A stretch of 64,000 nt of DNA from a candidate division LCP-89 bacterium B3_LCP (GTDB lineage Bacteria; Electryoneota; B3-LCP): positions 186,001 through 250,000 of the forward strand of contig NJBN01000004.1 in the NCBI GenBank assembly GCA_005223185.1, given 5' to 3'. A program made the position numbers and the translations under genes. The notes beneath the pieces are model-generated. The model was not told the DNA's origin. It saw only the letters and a list, made by a program, of their open reading frames with translations, and searched no databases. Positions 35,996 through 48,482 of the stretch are shown piece by piece (position 1 is the stretch's first letter; each line of letters starts with the position of its first letter).

Positions 35996-36640
35996 TTAGC
36001 GAGCTGTGTGATCTAAGGCTTCGTAGGCTGTGTGCATCTCTTCAAAAGCCTGCTTGATCTTCTCATTGTCACCTTTATCGCAGGCGACTAACAGTGCGTC
36101 AACTTTCTCGCCGAAAGCGGTCTTAGCACTCTTGAAACTGTGCGAACAGGCGCCTTCGGGACAGTTTGCATTCATTACGCTGCTTTTCAGGTCAGCCAGC
36201 TCGCTGCGTCCCTTCTTTACCGCATCGATGTCGCCTTTAGCAACGGCTTCGTGCAATGGATGCATGTAAGTATGAAAGTGGTTTATGGCATCTACTTTTG
36301 TCTGACCGCATTTGCCGTCACACCCTGCTTCTTTCTTAGTAGATTGGCACGATCCACAGCCTTTCTTCTCTTCTTTCTTACCTTTCTCTTCGCAGAGTCC
36401 CAACTTATCCAGCTCTTTCTTGCTTAAATAAGCCTCGGGATTTTTGCAGAACGCCTCTTTGCAGTGATCACTGCAGAAGTATAGGTTGCCTGATTTGCCT
36501 TCACAGGACGCAGCAGCCTTGGCAGCATCTACTTCCATCCCGCAGACTGGATCTTTGACGGAATCGCCGGTTATGGCGAGCCCTACCAAGACGCTGGCTA
36601 AAACTACCGTTAGAATGAATGCTAAAAAAACTCTCTTCAT
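35996..36640 (-). CDS. Exported YHS-domain, cysteine-rich metal-binding protein
   Basis: A 214-residue protein with a signal peptide (1-25). A YHS domain follows (DPVCGMEVD, then LYFCSDHCKEAFCKNPEAYL), a short module linked to metal binding. A cysteine-rich linker (CGSCQSTKKEAGCDGKCG) precedes a predicted helical bundle (about 120-214) with HFHTYMHPLHE. It probably binds a heavy metal or iron outside the cytoplasm. It is the last gene of the minus-strand run that holds the selenoprotein genes and ends at a strong terminator. A role in the same redox system is inferred from position only. Confidence 0.75.
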   Translation of the reverse strand: MKRVFLAFILTVVLASVLVGLAITGDSVKDPVCGMEVDAAKAAASCEGKSGNLYFCSDHCKEAFCKNPEAYLSKKELDKLGLCEEKGKKEEKKGCGSCQSTKKEAGCDGKCGQTKVDAINHFHTYMHPLHEAVAKGDIDAVKKGRSELADLKSSVMNANCPEGACSHSFKSAKTAFGEKVDALLVACDKGDNEKIKQAFEEMHTAYEALDHTAR

Positions 36641-36807: not shown

Positions 36808-39132
36808 TCATAATTGGAAACTCTTCCTCTTCTTCCGCCAGGGCCAGTTCCACACGAACCTGACATGCTGACACTCCGTGCATTCCAAGCACTTGATACA
36901 TTCCTCACTGTTCGCTTCGGTTTCAACTACCAGGTTAGCAGGGCAGGCTGCCGGGCATTGACCGCAAGATGCACAGGCTGGATCCACCTCTATCGAAACT
37001 AAGGATATACGGTTGAATAAGGCGTAAATCGCTCCAAGTGGGCAAAATACGCGGCAGAAGGGGCGTTTTATAAACAAGAATAACAGGAGAAATATCCCCA
37101 GTATCCACATTTTTATGGTGAACAACGTACCAATGTCTGCCGGATCGATGACTGAAATACCGATTTCCGGATCGATGGGATTCCAGAGAACCCAGGGAAT
37201 CCCGGCGATAAGAGCGCCGCAGGGACAGAGCTTGCTGAACCAGTGCTCGTAGGTGTAGTAAGGGATAATGATGACCACGCCGATTAATACAGCATATTTG
37301 AAGAAATCGAGTATCCTCGGCAGCGGTATGGTCAGTTTTTTGAATCTGTTGAGCAGGTCCTGGATTAAACCCCAGGGACACAGCCATCCGCAGGTGAATC
37401 GCCCCGATATCAGACCGATAATCCCTAAGAAACCTATCAAAAACCAGGGGATACGATGAGTCGCAGAAAAATGCTGCAGCATACCAATAGGGCAGCCCAT
37501 TAGTGCAGTGGGACACGAATGACAGTTCAGTCCCGGTACGCAGGCATTACGCAACGGTCCACCATAGACCATTTTAGTTGATATGACGCCCCAGAAACTG
37601 TTAAAAAGCAGCGTCCCCACACCGATCTGGGTTACCCTCCGCAGGATATGCAGTTTAGATCTCTTGGGCGCCTTGATAAAACTCTCGCCGCAGGTGACAC
37701 ATCTGTCCGCTTCCTTGACTATTGTTTCTTTCAGGGGAGTGAAATTACTTTCGCTCCATGGTTCTTTCAATCTCTGTTCAGCATTTAGACCGGGTACTCT
37801 GCAGCGTTGCGATTCTTCCAGAACATAGAGATTCAGTTGATCGGCACGGATAATCTCGCGGTCGGTATCTCTCACCGGTGATTCGTCACCACTTAACTCA
37901 GCGTGTATAGCTTCAGCGGCTCGCCGTCCTTGATTAAGAGCTTCGGCAACGATTCCTATTCCCTGAACGTCACCACCAGCAAAAATTCCATCATGTTCAG
38001 TAAAACCGTTCTGGTCAATTTCAGCCCAGACCATGGAAACCCTGATATTCTCGAGTCCCTCCCATTCTGGCTGCTGCGATACCGCGACAATAACATTATC
38101 TACTGACAGTGTGAAAGTATCATCAGGGATGGGAACCGGTTTTCTGCGTCCGGAATCGTCCGGCTCTCCAAGCTCCATCCTCTGGCATAATATGCTCGAA
38201 ACTCGCTCGTTTTCAGATTGAACCTCTAACGGCGCGGCGAGATAAACGATTTCGATCCTTTCCTCTTCGGCTGCTTCGATCTCTTCTGCCAGTGCCGGCA
38301 TCTCTTCTCTGGTGCGCCGGTAAACGATTGTGACCTTCGCACCGAGTCTTTTAGCAACCCTCGCCGCATCGATGGCGGTATTGCCTCCACCAATGACTGC
38401 TACGCTGTTTCCAAGATCTATCTTCTCACCGCTGTTTACGCTTTCGAGAAATTCAAGTCCGTTGTAAACCCCGGAAGTTTCTTCGCCGGGACAGTGCAGC
38501 ATCACCGCTTTTTGAGCACCGATCCCTAAGAAGACGGCATCGTGTTCTGTTCTAATTTCATCGAAGGATATGTCTTTGCCTACGGCACAGTTAGTGCGCA
38601 GTTCGACACCTAAGTCCAATATCTTTTCTATTTCGGCGCTAAGCACGTCGCGTGGCAGTCTAAAACTGGGGATGCCGTACCTAAGCATCCCTCCCGGTTC
38701 AGAGAGAGCTTCAAAGATGGTGCTTTTATATCCACGGCGCGCCAGTTGGTAAGCACAGGATAAACCCGCCGGTCCTGAACCTATTATGGCGATTTTCTCA
38801 GATTGGACTCTATCGGTAAGTTTTTGATGAGAAAGTGATTTATCAATCGCCCAATCACCCAGGAATCGTTCAATGACGTTTATGTTAACCGAACTATCCC
38901 TCTCTTGACGGTTGCATTCACCTTCACAGGGGTGCGGACAGACCCTACCGCATACTGCCGGGAAGGGATTGACTTCCGTGATCTTACGCCAGGCTTTCTC
39001 GAAAGCTTCTTCTTCGGTCATCCCCCGGTTTTCTGCCTGGGAGATATCACCGATGAAAGCCCGGATGTCAATCCCCTGCGGACAACTGTTAATGCAGGGG
39101 GCTAAAGGAATATTTTCTTTATTCTGAGACAT
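36808..39132 (-). CDS. Fusion: GltD-like NAD(P)H-FAD oxidoreductase + NapH-like membrane polyferredoxin
   Basis: A 774-residue protein with two halves. Residues 1-460 match the small-subunit glutamate synthase family: N-terminal Fe-S cysteines C13, C17, C61, C65, C69 and C73, a FAD loop GSGPAG (118-123) and a NAD(P)H loop GGGNTA (248-253). Residues about 480-774 are an inner-membrane polyferredoxin with several helices, NCHSCPTALMGCPIG, TCGWLCPWG, FCRVFCPLG and two C-terminal 4Fe-4S motifs (CASCGQCPAACP, CIKCLECTEC). Electrons would pass from cytoplasmic NAD(P)H through FAD and Fe-S clusters into the membrane. The gene follows the small selenopeptide gene by 138 bp across a palindromic repeat. 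A link to periplasmic selenothiols is my inference. Confidence 0.9.
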   Translation of the reverse strand: MSQNKENIPLAPCINSCPQGIDIRAFIGDISQAENRGMTEEEAFEKAWRKITEVNPFPAVCGRVCPHPCEGECNRQERDSSVNINVIERFLGDWAIDKSLSHQKLTDRVQSEKIAIIGSGPAGLSCAYQLARRGYKSTIFEALSEPGGMLRYGIPSFRLPRDVLSAEIEKILDLGVELRTNCAVGKDISFDEIRTEHDAVFLGIGAQKAVMLHCPGEETSGVYNGLEFLESVNSGEKIDLGNSVAVIGGGNTAIDAARVAKRLGAKVTIVYRRTREEMPALAEEIEAAEEERIEIVYLAAPLEVQSENERVSSILCQRMELGEPDDSGRRKPVPIPDDTFTLSVDNVIVAVSQQPEWEGLENIRVSMVWAEIDQNGFTEHDGIFAGGDVQGIGIVAEALNQGRRAAEAIHAELSGDESPVRDTDREIIRADQLNLYVLEESQRCRVPGLNAEQRLKEPWSESNFTPLKETIVKEADRCVTCGESFIKAPKRSKLHILRRVTQIGVGTLLFNSFWGVISTKMVYGGPLRNACVPGLNCHSCPTALMGCPIGMLQHFSATHRIPWFLIGFLGIIGLISGRFTCGWLCPWGLIQDLLNRFKKLTIPLPRILDFFKYAVLIGVVIIIPYYTYEHWFSKLCPCGALIAGIPWVLWNPIDPEIGISVIDPADIGTLFTIKMWILGIFLLLFLFIKRPFCRVFCPLGAIYALFNRISLVSIEVDPACASCGQCPAACPANLVVETEANSEECIKCLECTECQHVRFVWNWPWRKKRKSFQL

Positions 39133-39457: not shown

Positions 39458-39976
39458 TTACTCATGAGAAGATGCAGCTTCCTCCTCTTCTATTAACAGG
39501 GTATCCAGGATTTCCTTGATCTTATCTGTTTTTAAAAACAGTTTACTCCCCTGAACGATCCCTTCCTGATCAATTATAACGAGATGTGGCAATTTGGTTA
39601 TTTTATAATCCCGCGCTACGCCGGTTTGGCGGCAGATCAAGGTCGGAAATTCGATTTTGTACCGCTTCGCTTCTGCTGCAGCCTGCTTGGATGGGTTAAT
39701 GGCATTCATCGAAAGGATTTTTACCTGCTCTTCGGGGTAGCTTTCAGCAATTTTCTTAAGATGCGGAATCTCCGCATGACACTGTCGTCAATTGGATTTC
39801 CAGAAGTGCAGGATGACCACCTGCCCCCGGTAATCTGACAGGGTAACTTCGTCTCCTTTGGTCGTCTGCAGAGTGAAATCTGGCGCTTGAACGCCGACGC
39901 CTATGGCTGCATACCCAACTATGGGCATTAGAAAGATTGCTAAGATTATCAGTCTTTGAAAGTTTACATTCGTCAT
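39458..39976 (-). CDS. TlpA/thioredoxin-like selenoprotein (Sec at residue 63, UxxC)
   Basis: A 172-residue exported thioredoxin-fold protein that looks split by a TGA at 39788-39790. The frame is open on both sides without any shift. The N-terminus has a membrane/signal segment (1-24), APDFTLQTTKGDEVTLSDYRG and VVILHFWKSN. The TGA then stands where TlpA proteins have the first active-site cysteine, followed by RQCHAEIP, so the motif is U63-R-Q-C66. The cis-proline region is KLPHLVIID. A perfect 7-bp SECIS-like hairpin begins 10 nt after the TGA. Selenocysteine would make it a strong reductant or isomerase in the envelope. It follows the larger paralogue by 26 bp. Confidence 0.87.
39761..39777 (-). 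promoter_or_regulatory. SECIS-like hairpin of the 172-residue TlpA-like gene
   Basis: The mRNA reads ATGCGGA-GAT-TCCGCAT: a perfect 7-bp stem with a 3-nt loop starting in G. It begins 10 nt after the UGA. The loop and inner stem (CGGAGATTCCG) are identical to the hairpin in the neighbouring selenoprotein gene. Confidence 0.75.
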
Positions 39977-40002: not shown

Positions 40003-40878
40003 TTAATCGGGTGGATTTTCAAGCAGTTCATCTATTTTCGCTAGAACCTCATCCATTTCCAGGCTGAATTCGGGATCGGAATCAGTGCCATCGAACCGTA
40101 ACTGGATAACCCCCGACTGATCGATCAGGAATATCGATGGTAGATTAGTTAAATTCGACTCATAAAGATCGAAGGTATCACCGGTCGTGTCAGAAAGCAT
40201 GGGGAAGGTTATGGCGACGCTCTTGATCATGGTGGTCAGAGGCGCATACCACTCCAGCCATCCGGTCGGAGCGTTGGGATGCAGAACGCTTAGAACTGCC
40301 ACACTATCCGTATCGAATATCTCGTGAATTTCTGTCTGGAAATACGGAATCTCCGTACCAATGCAGAAAGATCATCCGTATTCGAAGAAATATGCCAACA
40401 CGATTTTGTCATCGCCGGTTAATACCGACAAAGTAACTAAATTATCGTCCAGGTCGTACAGGGCGATCTCAGGTGCCAGGAATCCCTCGTATGGTGCAAC
40501 CGGCAGGTCGCCCTCCAGGTCGAACTGAGTCTGGGTAGTCTGACCTTCCTGTACAGTAACGTACTGAGGTGCGCTGAAATATTCGATTGTGTCGCCAGGA
40601 TTGGGATAGATGATGGATCCCACTTCCAGCAGATGAGTACCGATTACTGTGGTCAATGTATGCGGATTGGGAAATGTGCCTAAAAAACCGTCATCGAGAG
40701 TTACGTGAACGCTATCTGCGGGACTGCTGTCCGGCATCACTCCATTTACCTGAACAGAACCCACCTTATCCACAATTGTTACGGGTAAGTTGCCGCATCC
40801 CCAGATCAAAAAGACGGTAATGATCAAAGCACAAACGATGAGCATTCCGGAATGACTATGTGTTTGATCCGCTCTCAT
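40003..40878 (-). CDS. Lipoprotein with thioredoxin-like domain, selenoprotein (Sec at residue 169, UxxC)
   Basis: A 291-residue lipoprotein interrupted by a TGA at 40372-40374 with the frame intact on both sides. A signal peptide ends in IWGC (lipidated C28). Residues about 38-120 form a small beta domain resembling PEGA. The thioredoxin-like domain starts near 128 (GFLAPEIALYDLDDN). Its active site reads AYFFEYG then TGA, then SFCIGTEIP, giving U169-S-F-C172. The cis-proline region is NLPSIFLID. A SECIS-like hairpin starts 14 nt after the TGA. Its start overlaps the barrel gene by 4 bp. Anchoring by lipid suggests it acts on the periplasmic face of a membrane, probably the outer one. Confidence 0.87.
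40343..40357 (-). promoter_or_regulatory. SECIS-like hairpin of the 291-residue lipoprotein gene
   Basis: The mRNA reads TACGGA-GAT-TCCGTA: a perfect 6-bp stem, extendable by wobble pairs, with a GAT loop. It begins 14 nt after the UGA. The inner part is identical to the hairpin at 39761-39777. Confidence 0.72.
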
Positions 40879-41879
40879 AATATGTGCTCCAATGCCAGCA
40901 GATAGGTGTTCATTTCGACGTCCTGATCACTCCAGTAATAGCGGTATTTAACCGATACGATGGTCTCGGCAAATAGGTGATGACTTAAGATACCGGATAT
41001 GGAAAAGCTGGTGAAATGGTCTCCCTTGATTGTCTCAAGGGCTGCTTCATCAGTAGGTTTTCCGTAATAGTAGCGTGCCCGCGTTTTGAAAATCGTTGCC
41101 CAGGATAGATATTGAGCAATTTCCAGGGAGGGGGAATGAGAAGTCAATCCGGCTGTATCCCAGTGTTCTCTCCATTCCAGATGTACGGCCGTCTGCGTTG
41201 GCAGCCACTGTGACAGCCAGAAAGTAAGCGTATTGGATACGAAATCGGCTTTTTCACCTGAAGCAAAGAACCAATCATGCCGAACCTGAAACGCGGTAGA
41301 GCGTGAAAGAGTCTGGCGCAGTTTTAATTGGAAGGAATGAGCATCGCTCTTCTCAAGTCCGACGCTGTCGATTTCATTGGTGTAATATGCGTATGATGCT
41401 GATGCCAGTACGAAACCCGCCCAGTCGTATCTACCGCCCAATTGGACCATCTTTCCCAGGAAGTTACCGGTGCCTCTGGTAAACTGACCGCTGATGTGCA
41501 CATCCGCGGAAGCGGAGACGTTACGTTGGTACTTGAGATTAAAGAGATCCTGAAAATTATTCTCAGACAGGTCAGAATATTGGTATTTCAACTGTATTTC
41601 ATCGTTGAAACCGATACCCTGGGTCACTCGAGCTAAACTCCTGTTTTCAGGAAAATCAACGATGTAAGGAAGCGGCTGGGTATATTGCTGATTGGGGTAT
41701 TCGAAGAGAATGGGATTGGGATAGGAGTATTTTAGATAGTCAGTGTACTGGTACTCTAATTTCACCTGAGTGAAGTTACCGATACTCAGAGGGCCGGCAA
41801 AGAGCGATGCGGGAATCAGCGTTATTGCACTGATTAAGAGAATTATTCTATTACAAGGGTTCATTTTATTCTGCATCAA
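40875..41879 (-). CDS. Outer-membrane beta-barrel protein
   Basis: A 334-residue exported protein with a signal peptide (1-28, ending LFAGP). The mature part alternates polar and aromatic residues in strands (VKLEYQYTDYLKYSY, IQLKYQYSDLSE, VSVKYRYYW) and ends with a strand finishing in a hydrophobic residue, as barrels do. It recalls the DUF3570-type barrels that travel with small DUF4266 lipoproteins and thioredoxins in other bacteria. That resemblance is from layout and is not a confirmed match. It sits between the small lipoprotein and the Sec lipoprotein and overlaps the latter by 4 bp. Confidence 0.75.
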   Translation of the reverse strand: MMQNKMNPCNRIILLISAITLIPASLFAGPLSIGNFTQVKLEYQYTDYLKYSYPNPILFEYPNQQYTQPLPYIVDFPENRSLARVTQGIGFNDEIQLKYQYSDLSENNFQDLFNLKYQRNVSASADVHISGQFTRGTGNFLGKMVQLGGRYDWAGFVLASASYAYYTNEIDSVGLEKSDAHSFQLKLRQTLSRSTAFQVRHDWFFASGEKADFVSNTLTFWLSQWLPTQTAVHLEWREHWDTAGLTSHSPSLEIAQYLSWATIFKTRARYYYGKPTDEAALETIKGDHFTSFSISGILSHHLFAETIVSVKYRYYWSDQDVEMNTYLLALEHIL

Positions 41880-41988: not shown

Positions 41989-42195
41989 TCAAGTAGGGCA
42001 TTCACCGGCTGAACCGGAATAACCGCCGTCTTCAACTTTACACAGGTCACTGTCCTGGGCGTCATCGGCATACATCATGGGATCGCTGACTGGCTGATCC
42101 AACATGTAAACCATGTTGAAAACACAGCCAGAGAACGCAACCATCAGGCAGAAAGAAAGGAAAATTATCACAAATGTGTGGATTAGACGCCGCAC
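41989..42195 (-). CDS. Small lipoprotein (DUF4266-like), possible C-terminal selenocysteine
   Basis: A 68-residue lipoprotein with a GTG start. The signal ends in a lipobox (AFSGC, C24). The end reads GGYSGSAGECPT and then TGA TGA. In the DUF4266-like lipoproteins that it resembles, the tail is a glycine-rich GGGCGCN with paired cysteines. Reading the first TGA as selenocysteine would give CPTU, a CxxU pair, with the second TGA as stop (69 residues). Reading both would extend it to 83 residues, ending at 41944. The hairpin at 41963 supports recoding, but ordinary termination is still possible. It is the first gene after the promoter at 42231-42259. Confidence 0.6.
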   Translation of the reverse strand: MRRLIHTFVIIFLSFCLMVAFSGCVFNMVYMLDQPVSDPMMYADDAQDSDLCKVEDGGYSGSAGECPT

Positions 42196-46565: not shown

Positions 46566-48482
46566 TCAAGATTGGTTCTTCAATTGGCGCACTTCACCCA
46601 CTCGCACAGTGAAACCTATCTGATCGAAGTAATTCAGAATCGGGGTGGTGAATTTACGTGTGGAATTTAGCGCTTCACGTGCTTCAAAAAAAGCGATTTC
46701 ATCTTTATCTTTAAAAAGACCTGCCACGATATCTTTTGCCTCATCGATGCGTTGGGAGTGAAAAATCAGAGCGCGGCCTATCTTGATGCTTAATTCCTTC
46801 AGGTCGCCCTTATCAGTCAGCCCTTGAATTACACGGCGGACCTGCTCAGCAGGCGCGTCCAACTGTTCGGTTAGTTCATCGAATTCGGGAGTGACGAAAG
46901 CAGCTTCCCAGTATATTTTTAGGATTTTTTCTGCTAATAATTCCTGCTGTTTATTGAACTTGATCTTGTGTCCCTTCCGCAGAACGTGCAGACCCTTTAA
47001 TTCTATATCACCCTCTTCCACATGGTGATCGAGAAAAGCGTCGTACAGTCCTGTATCCACCTTACCGAACAGCTTGCCTGCCAGTTCGGAACGTTTCAAC
47101 CCTAAGCGAAATGGGTTGGCATGGTGGAATTCATCCAGCGTCTTCAGCATCAATTTTCTGGAGTCTTCTAAGACTTCATGATGGATAACCCAATACGTCT
47201 GAGGCGTTTTGAATTGAACTATCTTACCCTGCTCGATCAATTTCTCAAAGAGACCGGATACTTCATCTTCTGGTCGGGAAATATCGCGGGCGACAGAAGC
47301 GATGGTCAGAGGAACGAAGCCGCTGCGTCTGATATGTTGTTCGGTTAAGTCACCGGCGCCGCCTTTGTCCAGAGCTTCTAAAACGCGGATCTCATCATCC
47401 GGGAGGTACTTCAATTTTTCTGGATGGACTTCCAATATCTGCCCGCCGCCGATGGTTCTGCCAGGTGAGTAATCCCTTATGACGAATCGGTCGCCGATTT
47501 CGCAGACGGTAGGGGATTCTAAGCGCAATTGCATGTAGCCGGTTTCGCCCGGAAGAATGGGTTTCTTCTCTAAAGGCACCGCTCTGGCTAAGTACTCGGC
47601 TGTACCTAAATGGAGACGAATTCTAGCGCGGTTGGCAAGGGGCTTTGAAGCAAAAAGGAGGTGATTATAGGACACGTTCAGCATGTAGGTTGATTTGAAA
47701 TATCCAGTTTGTGCTAGCAGATCACCGCGCATGATCTGGGATGTTTCCACCCCCTGTAGATTGATGGCAGCACGTTCACCGATTCTGGTTTTGGGGACTT
47801 CAGCGTTATGAACCTGTATCCGCTTAATGCGGACGGTAATTCCAGCAGGCTGCAGTTCAGCGCGATCGCCGGGTTTAAGTTCTCCGCCCAAAACGGTTCC
47901 AGCGATGACGGTCCCCGAACCTTTTATGCTGAAAACGCGGTCAACGTACATGCGGAAAACACCACGATCGGGTCTTGGGGGAATCTCTTCTGCTAACTTT
48001 AAAATTGCCTGTTTTATCTCTTCGATGCCCTTACCGCTGATGCTATCAACTCGGAAAATTGGCGCATCTTCCAGGAAAGATCCCGTTAACCTTTGCTTGA
48101 TATCATCCTCGACCAGGTCAACCCATTCAGGGTCCACCGTATCGATCTTCGTCAACGCTACCATGCCGCGTTCGACGTTCATCAGTTTCAAGATTTCAAA
48201 GTGCTCTTCCGACTGCGGCATGAAACCGTCATCGGCGGCAACGATGAAAACGACTGCATCGACCGTCACCACTCCAGACAGCATGTTTTTGATGAATTTT
48301 TCATGCCCCGGAACGTCTATGAAAGTGATATCGTCACCTAAGAAAGCAAATCCCAGGTCAATGGTCATTTCCCTCTCTTTTTCTTCCTGCAGACGATCAG
48401 GGTCTGTGCCGGTTAGCGCTCTGACTAATGCGGATTTCCCATGATCGACATGCCCCGCAGTGCCGATGACAACATGCTGCAT
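46566..48482 (-). CDS. selB: SelB, selenocysteine-specific translation elongation factor
   Basis: It delivers selenocysteinyl-tRNA to in-frame UGA codons that carry a SECIS hairpin. It has 638 residues. The N-terminal GTPase has G1 GHVDHGKS, EREMTIDLGFA, DVPGHE and ALTKID. Beta-barrel domains follow (about 175-365). The C-terminal third (about 380-638) consists of the winged-helix repeats that bind the SECIS RNA and distinguish SelB from EF-Tu. Its presence shows that this organism inserts selenocysteine, which supports the UGA-containing genes 4-9 kb away on the same strand. selA, selC and selD are not in the window. Confidence 0.95.
   Translation of the reverse strand: MQHVVIGTAGHVDHGKSALVRALTGTDPDRLQEEKEREMTIDLGFAFLGDDITFIDVPGHEKFIKNMLSGVVTVDAVVFIVAADDGFMPQSEEHFEILKLMNVERGMVALTKIDTVDPEWVDLVEDDIKQRLTGSFLEDAPIFRVDSISGKGIEEIKQAILKLAEEIPPRPDRGVFRMYVDRVFSIKGSGTVIAGTVLGGELKPGDRAELQPAGITVRIKRIQVHNAEVPKTRIGERAAINLQGVETSQIMRGDLLAQTGYFKSTYMLNVSYNHLLFASKPLANRARIRLHLGTAEYLARAVPLEKKPILPGETGYMQLRLESPTVCEIGDRFVIRDYSPGRTIGGGQILEVHPEKLKYLPDDEIRVLEALDKGGAGDLTEQHIRRSGFVPLTIASVARDISRPEDEVSGLFEKLIEQGKIVQFKTPQTYWVIHHEVLEDSRKLMLKTLDEFHHANPFRLGLKRSELAGKLFGKVDTGLYDAFLDHHVEEGDIELKGLHVLRKGHKIKFNKQQELLAEKILKIYWEAAFVTPEFDELTEQLDAPAEQVRRVIQGLTDKGDLKELSIKIGRALIFHSQRIDEAKDIVAGLFKDKDEIAFFEAREALNSTRKFTTPILNYFDQIGFTVRVGEVRQLKNQS

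Follow-up and report, generated by a model that had tools for sequence, protein, structure and literature searches.

Does the in-frame TGA of a lipoprotein gene (P1) from candidate division LCP-89 bacterium B3_LCP encode selenocysteine (Sec), and if so, which machinery reads it? We present here an analysis of the gene, its neighbours and its homologues; the window is the whole stretch of 64,000 nucleotides analysed, from contig NJBN01000004.1, and the genome that it comes from is called the home genome (G000). Two families of genomes recur below: f1, which by its named relatives falls in candidate division LCP-89, and f2, which likewise falls with Candidatus Electryoneota.

The P1 gene and its UGA codon

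40003..40878, minus strand: P1, lipoprotein in which an N-terminal beta domain is followed by an AhpC/TSA (ResA-like) domain at the C-terminus, with the active site U-S-F-C
40372..40374, minus strand: UGA in the P1 frame, read as Sec (U169) from the TGA/Cys pattern in homologues

Read on the minus strand from 40878 to 40003 with TGA taken as a residue, the frame encodes 291 amino acids and contains a single internal TGA, in the context AYFFEYG-U-SFCIGTEIPYFQ. A first-pass annotation of the locus, which left the strand unstated, had placed this TGA in AYFFEYG-U-SFC, a UxxC site in a thioredoxin-like domain, and that placement is borne out; the open frame that it described beyond the TGA is also present and includes NLPSIFLID, but is 122 codons long rather than 123. 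A plus-strand reading of the locus was rejected, as it contains stops throughout.

The N-terminus of P1 has a lipobox-like stretch with G-C-G as its last residues, as do the f1 homologues by inspection. The protein matches PF00578 (5.6e-11) and combines this domain with a CxxC-type site, which is how ResA/TlpA-like oxidoreductases were recognized (AhpC/TSA or Redoxin domain plus such a site). ResA 4nmu is the top sequence-profile match (6.7e-20) and also comes first in Foldseek with an AlphaFold2 model, which is weak (mean pLDDT, 65.3) and was not used as support. No NCBIfam model scores over its cut-off; the ResA model gives 32.7 bits against a cut-off of 170, so P1 is called ResA-like and is not filed as ResA.

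P1 was used as the query against 147 genomes and found matches in 44. The 14 best matches, from 13 genomes (6 of f1 and 7 of f2), contain exactly one TGA each, and the TGA occupies one shared site in all 13 aligned close homologues. Among 17 distant homologues tested, all 14 that could be aligned at the Sec site have Cys there. A relative with a sense codon other than Cys at this site, which the first-pass annotation had named as a possible refutation, was found in neither group. P1 therefore has a conserved in-frame UGA opposite Cys in homologues, by which selenoproteins are recognized, and the home genome has selA, selB, selC and selD. Standard ORF calling splits P1 into two pieces, as it would if the UGA were a true stop in a split or decayed thioredoxin; this is extremely improbable, given that 13 genomes share the position of the TGA at 28 to 54% identity, that the half downstream of it is conserved, and that none of them has another stop codon there. 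Judged from its sequence, P1 is a real selenoprotein, as the first-pass annotation had proposed with what is now good support, and, as a protein, a further predicted member of the known UxxC Prx-like type.

The P1 and P2 hairpins

about 40341..40359, minus strand: P1 SECIS, class A, GGUACGG-AGAUU-CCGUAUU (covariation; 30.0 bits with the genome-wide model)
39458..39976, minus strand: P2, second secreted Sec thioredoxin-like protein (U-R-Q-C, U63), with TGA in orthologues
39788..39790, minus strand: UGA in the P2 frame, from its reading frame and the TGA/hairpin count
39761..39777, minus strand: P2 SECIS, class A, AUGCGG-AGAUU-CCGCAU (29.1 bits)

The neighbouring gene, P2, has TGA in all 13 of its closest orthologues (its own included). 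The hairpin 3′ of the P1 UGA has the core TACGGA-GAT-TCCGTA, an uninterrupted 7-bp stem, a loop of 3 or 5 nt (GAU triloop or AGAUU pentaloop) and a minimum free energy (MFE) of -12.8 kcal/mol; the pentaloop starts 19 nt after the UGA. The P2 hairpin, ATGCGGA-GAT-TCCGCAT, has an MFE of -9.7 kcal/mol, and its pentaloop starts 16 nt after the UGA. According to the accessible part of PMC13188914, the bacterial SECIS (bSECIS) consensus has a small apical loop with a G in its first two places, followed mostly by G or U. The P1 loop and stem lie within the bSECIS size range (apical loop of 3 to 9 nt, stem of 4 to 16 bp), and both hairpins have the spacing (16 to 37 nt from UGA to loop), the MFE (-7.5 or lower) and the G within the first two loop positions. 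The usual, not absolute, G or U after that G is absent from both, in which A follows; in the selD hairpins of f2, the loop has G and then U.

Both hairpins contain the 11-mer CGGAGATTCCG, a sharing that the first-pass annotation had seen. It had also called the two proteins otherwise quite different, which needs correction: both have the AhpC/TSA domain, and E-I-P follows UxxC at a matching position, one codon farther from U in P1.

Conservation of the P1 stem was measured across 13 sequences, in which 96.2% of the stem cells are paired, three pairs are altered on both sides, and the single mismatches number three (A.A twice and G.G once). The covariation score is 0.556; shuffling gives a mean of 0.175, with none of 500 shuffles reaching the observed score, and sliding the stem gives no more than 0.175. 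The same-codon fraction among P1 homologues is 0.61 in the hairpin versus 0.39 outside it, with 0 of 150 outside windows as high; in f2, the values are 0.86 and 0.42. The covariation evidence comes from alignment A2, the register of which was set by the P1 codons. Alignments A3 (without P2 of G011, G031 and G033), A5 and A6 consist of segments selected by their loop and stem, which biases their pair counts towards structure; A2 alone was used as evidence. The comparison of synonymous sites and the covariation test had both been suggested in the first-pass annotation, and each favours the hairpin; the outcome that it held would count against a SECIS, a disrupted stem with the UGA kept, is not what these sequences present.

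The loop shared by P1 and P2 belongs to a wider class, here class A, with the apical pentamer [AG]-G-[AU]-U-N. Counting both strands, the window has 2637 TGA triplets. A hairpin of at least 5 bp with a class A loop stands at the right distance after 5 of them (the loop class having been fixed beforehand from P1, P2 and relatives), and exactly two of the 5 have an open frame of at least 40 codons both before and after the TGA, namely, P1 and P2. A class A covariance model with P1 and P2 both in its training set, run over the whole home genome, gives them 30.0 and 29.1 bits and the next hit 16.4 bits.

In other Sec genes, the codons under the class A loop specify P-Q-M/I, P-R-I, S-Q-I, S-R-I or A-Q-L. 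Two class A families came from a scan in which the motif played no part and which required a stem, whatever its loop, and a Cys nearby; their loop codons specify P-Q-M/I or P-R-I, and S-Q-I or S-R-I. The coincidence of protein and RNA constraints described in the first-pass annotation holds for P1 and P2, and the RNA constraint also stands alone, over other codons. Cys homologues, too, often have E-x-P after CxxC, from which the hairpin might be thought a by-product of the conserved E-I-P motif after UxxC; we regard this as very improbable, given the raised same-codon fractions, the three two-sided stem changes, and a loop class that is kept where other families spell other residues, such as P-Q-M/I or A-Q-L. 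Mere inheritance of the 11-mer between paralogues was rejected on the same loop being found in unrelated contexts. No accident of two genes, the 11-mer represents locally a SECIS class that goes with one set of Sec machinery and is probably specific to its SelB.

Two sets of Sec machinery

46566..48482, minus strand: SelB-A, proposed decoder of P1 and P2 (over the NCBIfam cut-off; SelB tree)

The home genome encodes two SelB proteins over the family cut-off, two tRNA-Sec over the Rfam cut-off (both with anticodon UCA), two SelA and a single SelD that is a Sec protein in its own right. With two diverged copies each of selA, selB and tRNA-Sec, it counts as a two-set genome. In f1, two tRNA-Sec, two SelA and one SelD are found in 6/6 genomes and two SelB in 5/6; the sole gap is a second SelB not found in the fragmented genome G003. 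Trees of SelB (45 sequences), SelA (18 of 19 loci tried, the G037 locus being absent) and tRNA-Sec (38 sequences) split into the same two sets. Set A, which in the home genome includes the selB of the window, clusters with the single set of f2; SelB-A groups with the SelB of genomes that have set A only (SH-aLRT, 100), and tRNA-Sec set A also has a support of 100. Set B falls with several families, f4, f5 and f8 among them, where deep branches are weakly supported.

All of these genomes are drafts, and in G000 the two sets are unlinked by contig (C18 and C7 versus C16, C13 and C6), as would be seen if the second set were contamination or a mis-assembly of metagenome bins. This is most unlikely: the f1 assemblies, which are 93 to 96% complete with 0.4 to 3% contamination, have both sets in every one of the six genomes (except for one SelB in G003), and their SelB-B copies group together.

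Identity between SelB-A and SelB-B of the home genome is 54% over the GTPase part and 24% over the SECIS-binding end. The latter value is expected if the two read different RNAs, and this end diverges fast in general (0.30 within set B). A comparison of the SelB wing domains revealed low identity and no clear residue for loop choice. The closest TGA-bearing P1 and P2 genes occur only in genomes with SelB-A, the f2 genomes without SelB (G006 and G028) have no P1 with TGA, and in several f2 genomes P1 and P2 share contigs with sel genes. Elsewhere in G000 and G001 (L246 and L247), selA-B adjoins a Cys-form ResA-like gene.

Two hairpin classes and their proposed decoders

A second hairpin class, B, has the apical pentamer N-G-G-N-N. 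For the class counts, each hairpin was picked by its longest stem, and the motif was not used. Genomes with set A only yielded 31 hairpins (29 of class A, 0 of class B and 2 unclassed, these being P1 and a P1 paralogue of G033). Those counted as B-only, which take in G029 (SelB, SelA and tRNA-Sec not found) and G012 (partial SelB, tRNA-Sec not found), yielded 24 (23 of class B, 0 of class A and 1 unclassed). No hairpin of the opposite class is thus present among the 55 from genomes counted as one-set. The two-set genomes yielded 26, of which 16 are class A, 6 are class B, and 4 are unclassed: the thioredoxin of G003 (AGAGU), the thioredoxin and selD of G010, and the peroxiredoxin of G000. By eye, the G010 selD hairpin is CCCA-AGAUU-UGGG, of class A.

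The classes follow families. In f1, P1 and P2 are class A in 6/6 genomes each, a beta-propeller gene is class A in the 4/4 read, and selD is class B in 6/6; over all two-set genomes, selD is class B in 6/7. In A-only genomes, P1, P2, a UGA thioredoxin and two further families carry class A loops, and in B-only genomes, selD and UGA thioredoxins carry class B loops. The selD gene switches class with the set, being A in all six A-only genomes read (the SelD of G019 is not among these) and B in 17 of 18 counted as B-only, with 1 unclassed. The A-only selD loop, AGUU[GA], lies at the same codons as the loop of B-only selD.

We consider it likely that P1 is a selenoprotein read by set A through its class A hairpin, alongside a second set, B, with N-G-G-N-N hairpins on selD, and that P1 takes part in a redox path with P2 and a GltD/NapH-like protein described below. 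SelB-A, carrying Sec-tRNA-Sec-A, would bind the class A hairpin just 3′ of the UGA, so that Sec is inserted at residue 169 of P1, and each SelB would prefer its own class; the exported P1 and P2 would then act as Sec thioredoxins. A stronger form, which we find evenly balanced, has two mutually selective decoders for the same codon and amino acid, with set A serving exported redox proteins (P1, P2 and the Sec-Cys beta-propeller) and set B serving the selD that feeds both. If true, the cell would hold a naturally orthogonal pair of translation systems, retained so that two selenoproteomes can be controlled separately. The sole B-class gene found in the home genome is selD, so set B may serve very little there.

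Alternatively, P1 is a selenoprotein and the machineries are redundant, with either SelB reading either hairpin and the loop classes reflecting drift within families. Since hairpin classes follow families, independent events are few, and such nesting fits redundancy; so do the two-set loops of neither class and the G at pentamer position 2 of both loop kinds, which matches known bacterial SECIS elements as given in the available portion of PMC13188914. Against it stand the absence of opposite-class hairpins from one-set genomes, the retention of both complete sets in six genera (one SelB not found in G003), and the recurrence of class A in unrelated protein contexts. We judge redundancy possible but rather unlikely, and decoding of P1 by set A remains the preferred reading.

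A conserved cluster and a proposed redox path

41989..42195, minus strand: small lipoprotein of 68 aa, first gene of the conserved cluster, with a weak DUF6970 match below cut-off
40875..41879, minus strand: conserved 334-aa protein, probably an outer-membrane beta-barrel (cluster conservation; barrel by inspection)
36808..39132, minus strand: GltD-like pyridine-nucleotide flavoprotein fused to a membrane NapH-like 4Fe-4S part (domain matches; cluster conservation)
35996..36640, minus strand: secreted YHS-domain protein, the end of the cluster in several f1 genomes (domain match; cluster comparison)

Both f1 and f2 preserve the order small lipoprotein, 334-aa barrel-like protein, P1, P2 and GltD/NapH-like protein, and the cluster extends to SelB-A in the three f1 contigs of sufficient length. 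The 334-aa gene lies directly upstream of P1, overlaps its start, and has no match in Pfam or NCBIfam. Conservation of the cluster suggests a path in which electrons would pass from NAD(P)H across the inner membrane through the GltD/NapH-like protein, the proposed electron source for P2 and P1, and from these to an outer-membrane partner. Mature P1 probably passes reducing equivalents outside the cytoplasm at its U-x-x-C site. The flavoprotein also resembles the NCBIfam model diclust_near_Sec below cut-off (137.8 of 530 bits), the name of which suggests a location near Sec genes.

Relation to known systems

UxxC Prx-like and ResA-type selenoprotein families have been published, as the accessible text of PMC1088965 and PMC1794560 indicates. 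P1 resembles them in its AhpC/TSA fold, U-x-x-C site, Cys homologues and downstream bacterial SECIS, and differs in having no NCBIfam model over cut-off, an extra N-terminal beta domain with a lipobox, and its own conserved gene cluster. Class A hairpins resemble the bSECIS consensus, so far as the available sections of PMC13188914 set it out, in their small loop, early G, and stem and spacing in range; they differ in the A after the G in their main form, AGAUU, and in occurring as one class per SelB lineage.

Genomes with two tRNA-Sec genes or two sel operons have been published as well; one of them, Photobacterium profundum 3TCK, has two non-identical tRNA-Sec in two complete sel operons, according to the accessible part of PMC5330540. 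The home genome is like it in having two non-identical tRNA-Sec; here, in contrast, both sets are family-wide, are scattered over the contigs of the home genome and share one selD, and two SECIS classes accompany them, of which the same part of PMC5330540 makes no mention for 3TCK. For B3_LCP, the available text of PMC12013277 reports four known selenoprotein genes found by deep-Sep, none new and the four unnamed, and in that text the listing does not mention two sel sets. Given this count, P1 and P2 have probably already been included among the four, and the beta-propeller Sec gene may be one beyond them. A search confined to the open-licence literature, which leaves absence unproven, turned up no account of a genome in which two SECIS classes pair with two SelBs. 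What appears to be new is the matching of two SECIS classes to two SelBs in one cell, with exclusive recognition suggested by it.

Variation among bacterial SECIS elements is known, and joint change of SelB and hairpin is hard to study, as cells usually have one SelB. Relatives with set A only, set B only or both, and a selD in both classes, make SelB-SECIS specificity directly testable, and the two-set family provides Sec engineering with a natural pair. Selenoproteins may be missed by SECIS searches tuned to G-G or G-U loops; here, two candidate families that are new surfaced.

Further Sec genes

One of these is the secreted FG-GAP beta-propeller, outside the window on home contig C18 near 54.8 kb (L039:1-1170, minus strand), with UGA in SVSYG-U-CIGATP, a Sec-Cys pair. 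It adjoins selD and tRNA-Sec-A, and a class A hairpin is present in each of the 8 members read, which come from f1 and f2; from sequence it is a candidate new selenoprotein family. The other candidate family, likewise predicted, is a secreted f2 protein with CPG-U-GGG (CxxU) and a class A hairpin, present in five genomes (L128 near 8397 on the plus strand, L143, L087, L190 and L191); the L128 copy ends in a Por secretion tail.

As genome-wide finders, the covariance models, which scored only 150 first-look candidates (of 1050 for R1 and of 215 each for R2 and R3), returned no Sec genes of the home genome beyond P1, P2 and selD. R2 did not list the beta-propeller gene; together with the few candidates scored, this means that the home selenoproteome is incomplete.

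Several further loci were noted. A BCP-type peroxiredoxin (L146 near 1749, minus strand; home contig C7:390654-391025) has TGA at its peroxidatic Cys (TSG-U-KKQ) and a hairpin that fits neither class. The UGA thioredoxins of the two-set genomes G003 and G010 (L242 near 1500 and L241 near 1331, both plus strand) fit neither class cleanly, with loops AGAGU and, by eye, AGCAUGC. The second P1-type gene of the A-only genome G033 (L199 near 1085, plus strand) is an exception, with loop GGACA. In a genome from outside the phylum, L025 near 3154 (minus strand) has a UGA in HT-U-DSC (UxxC), close to a Cys relative of P1.
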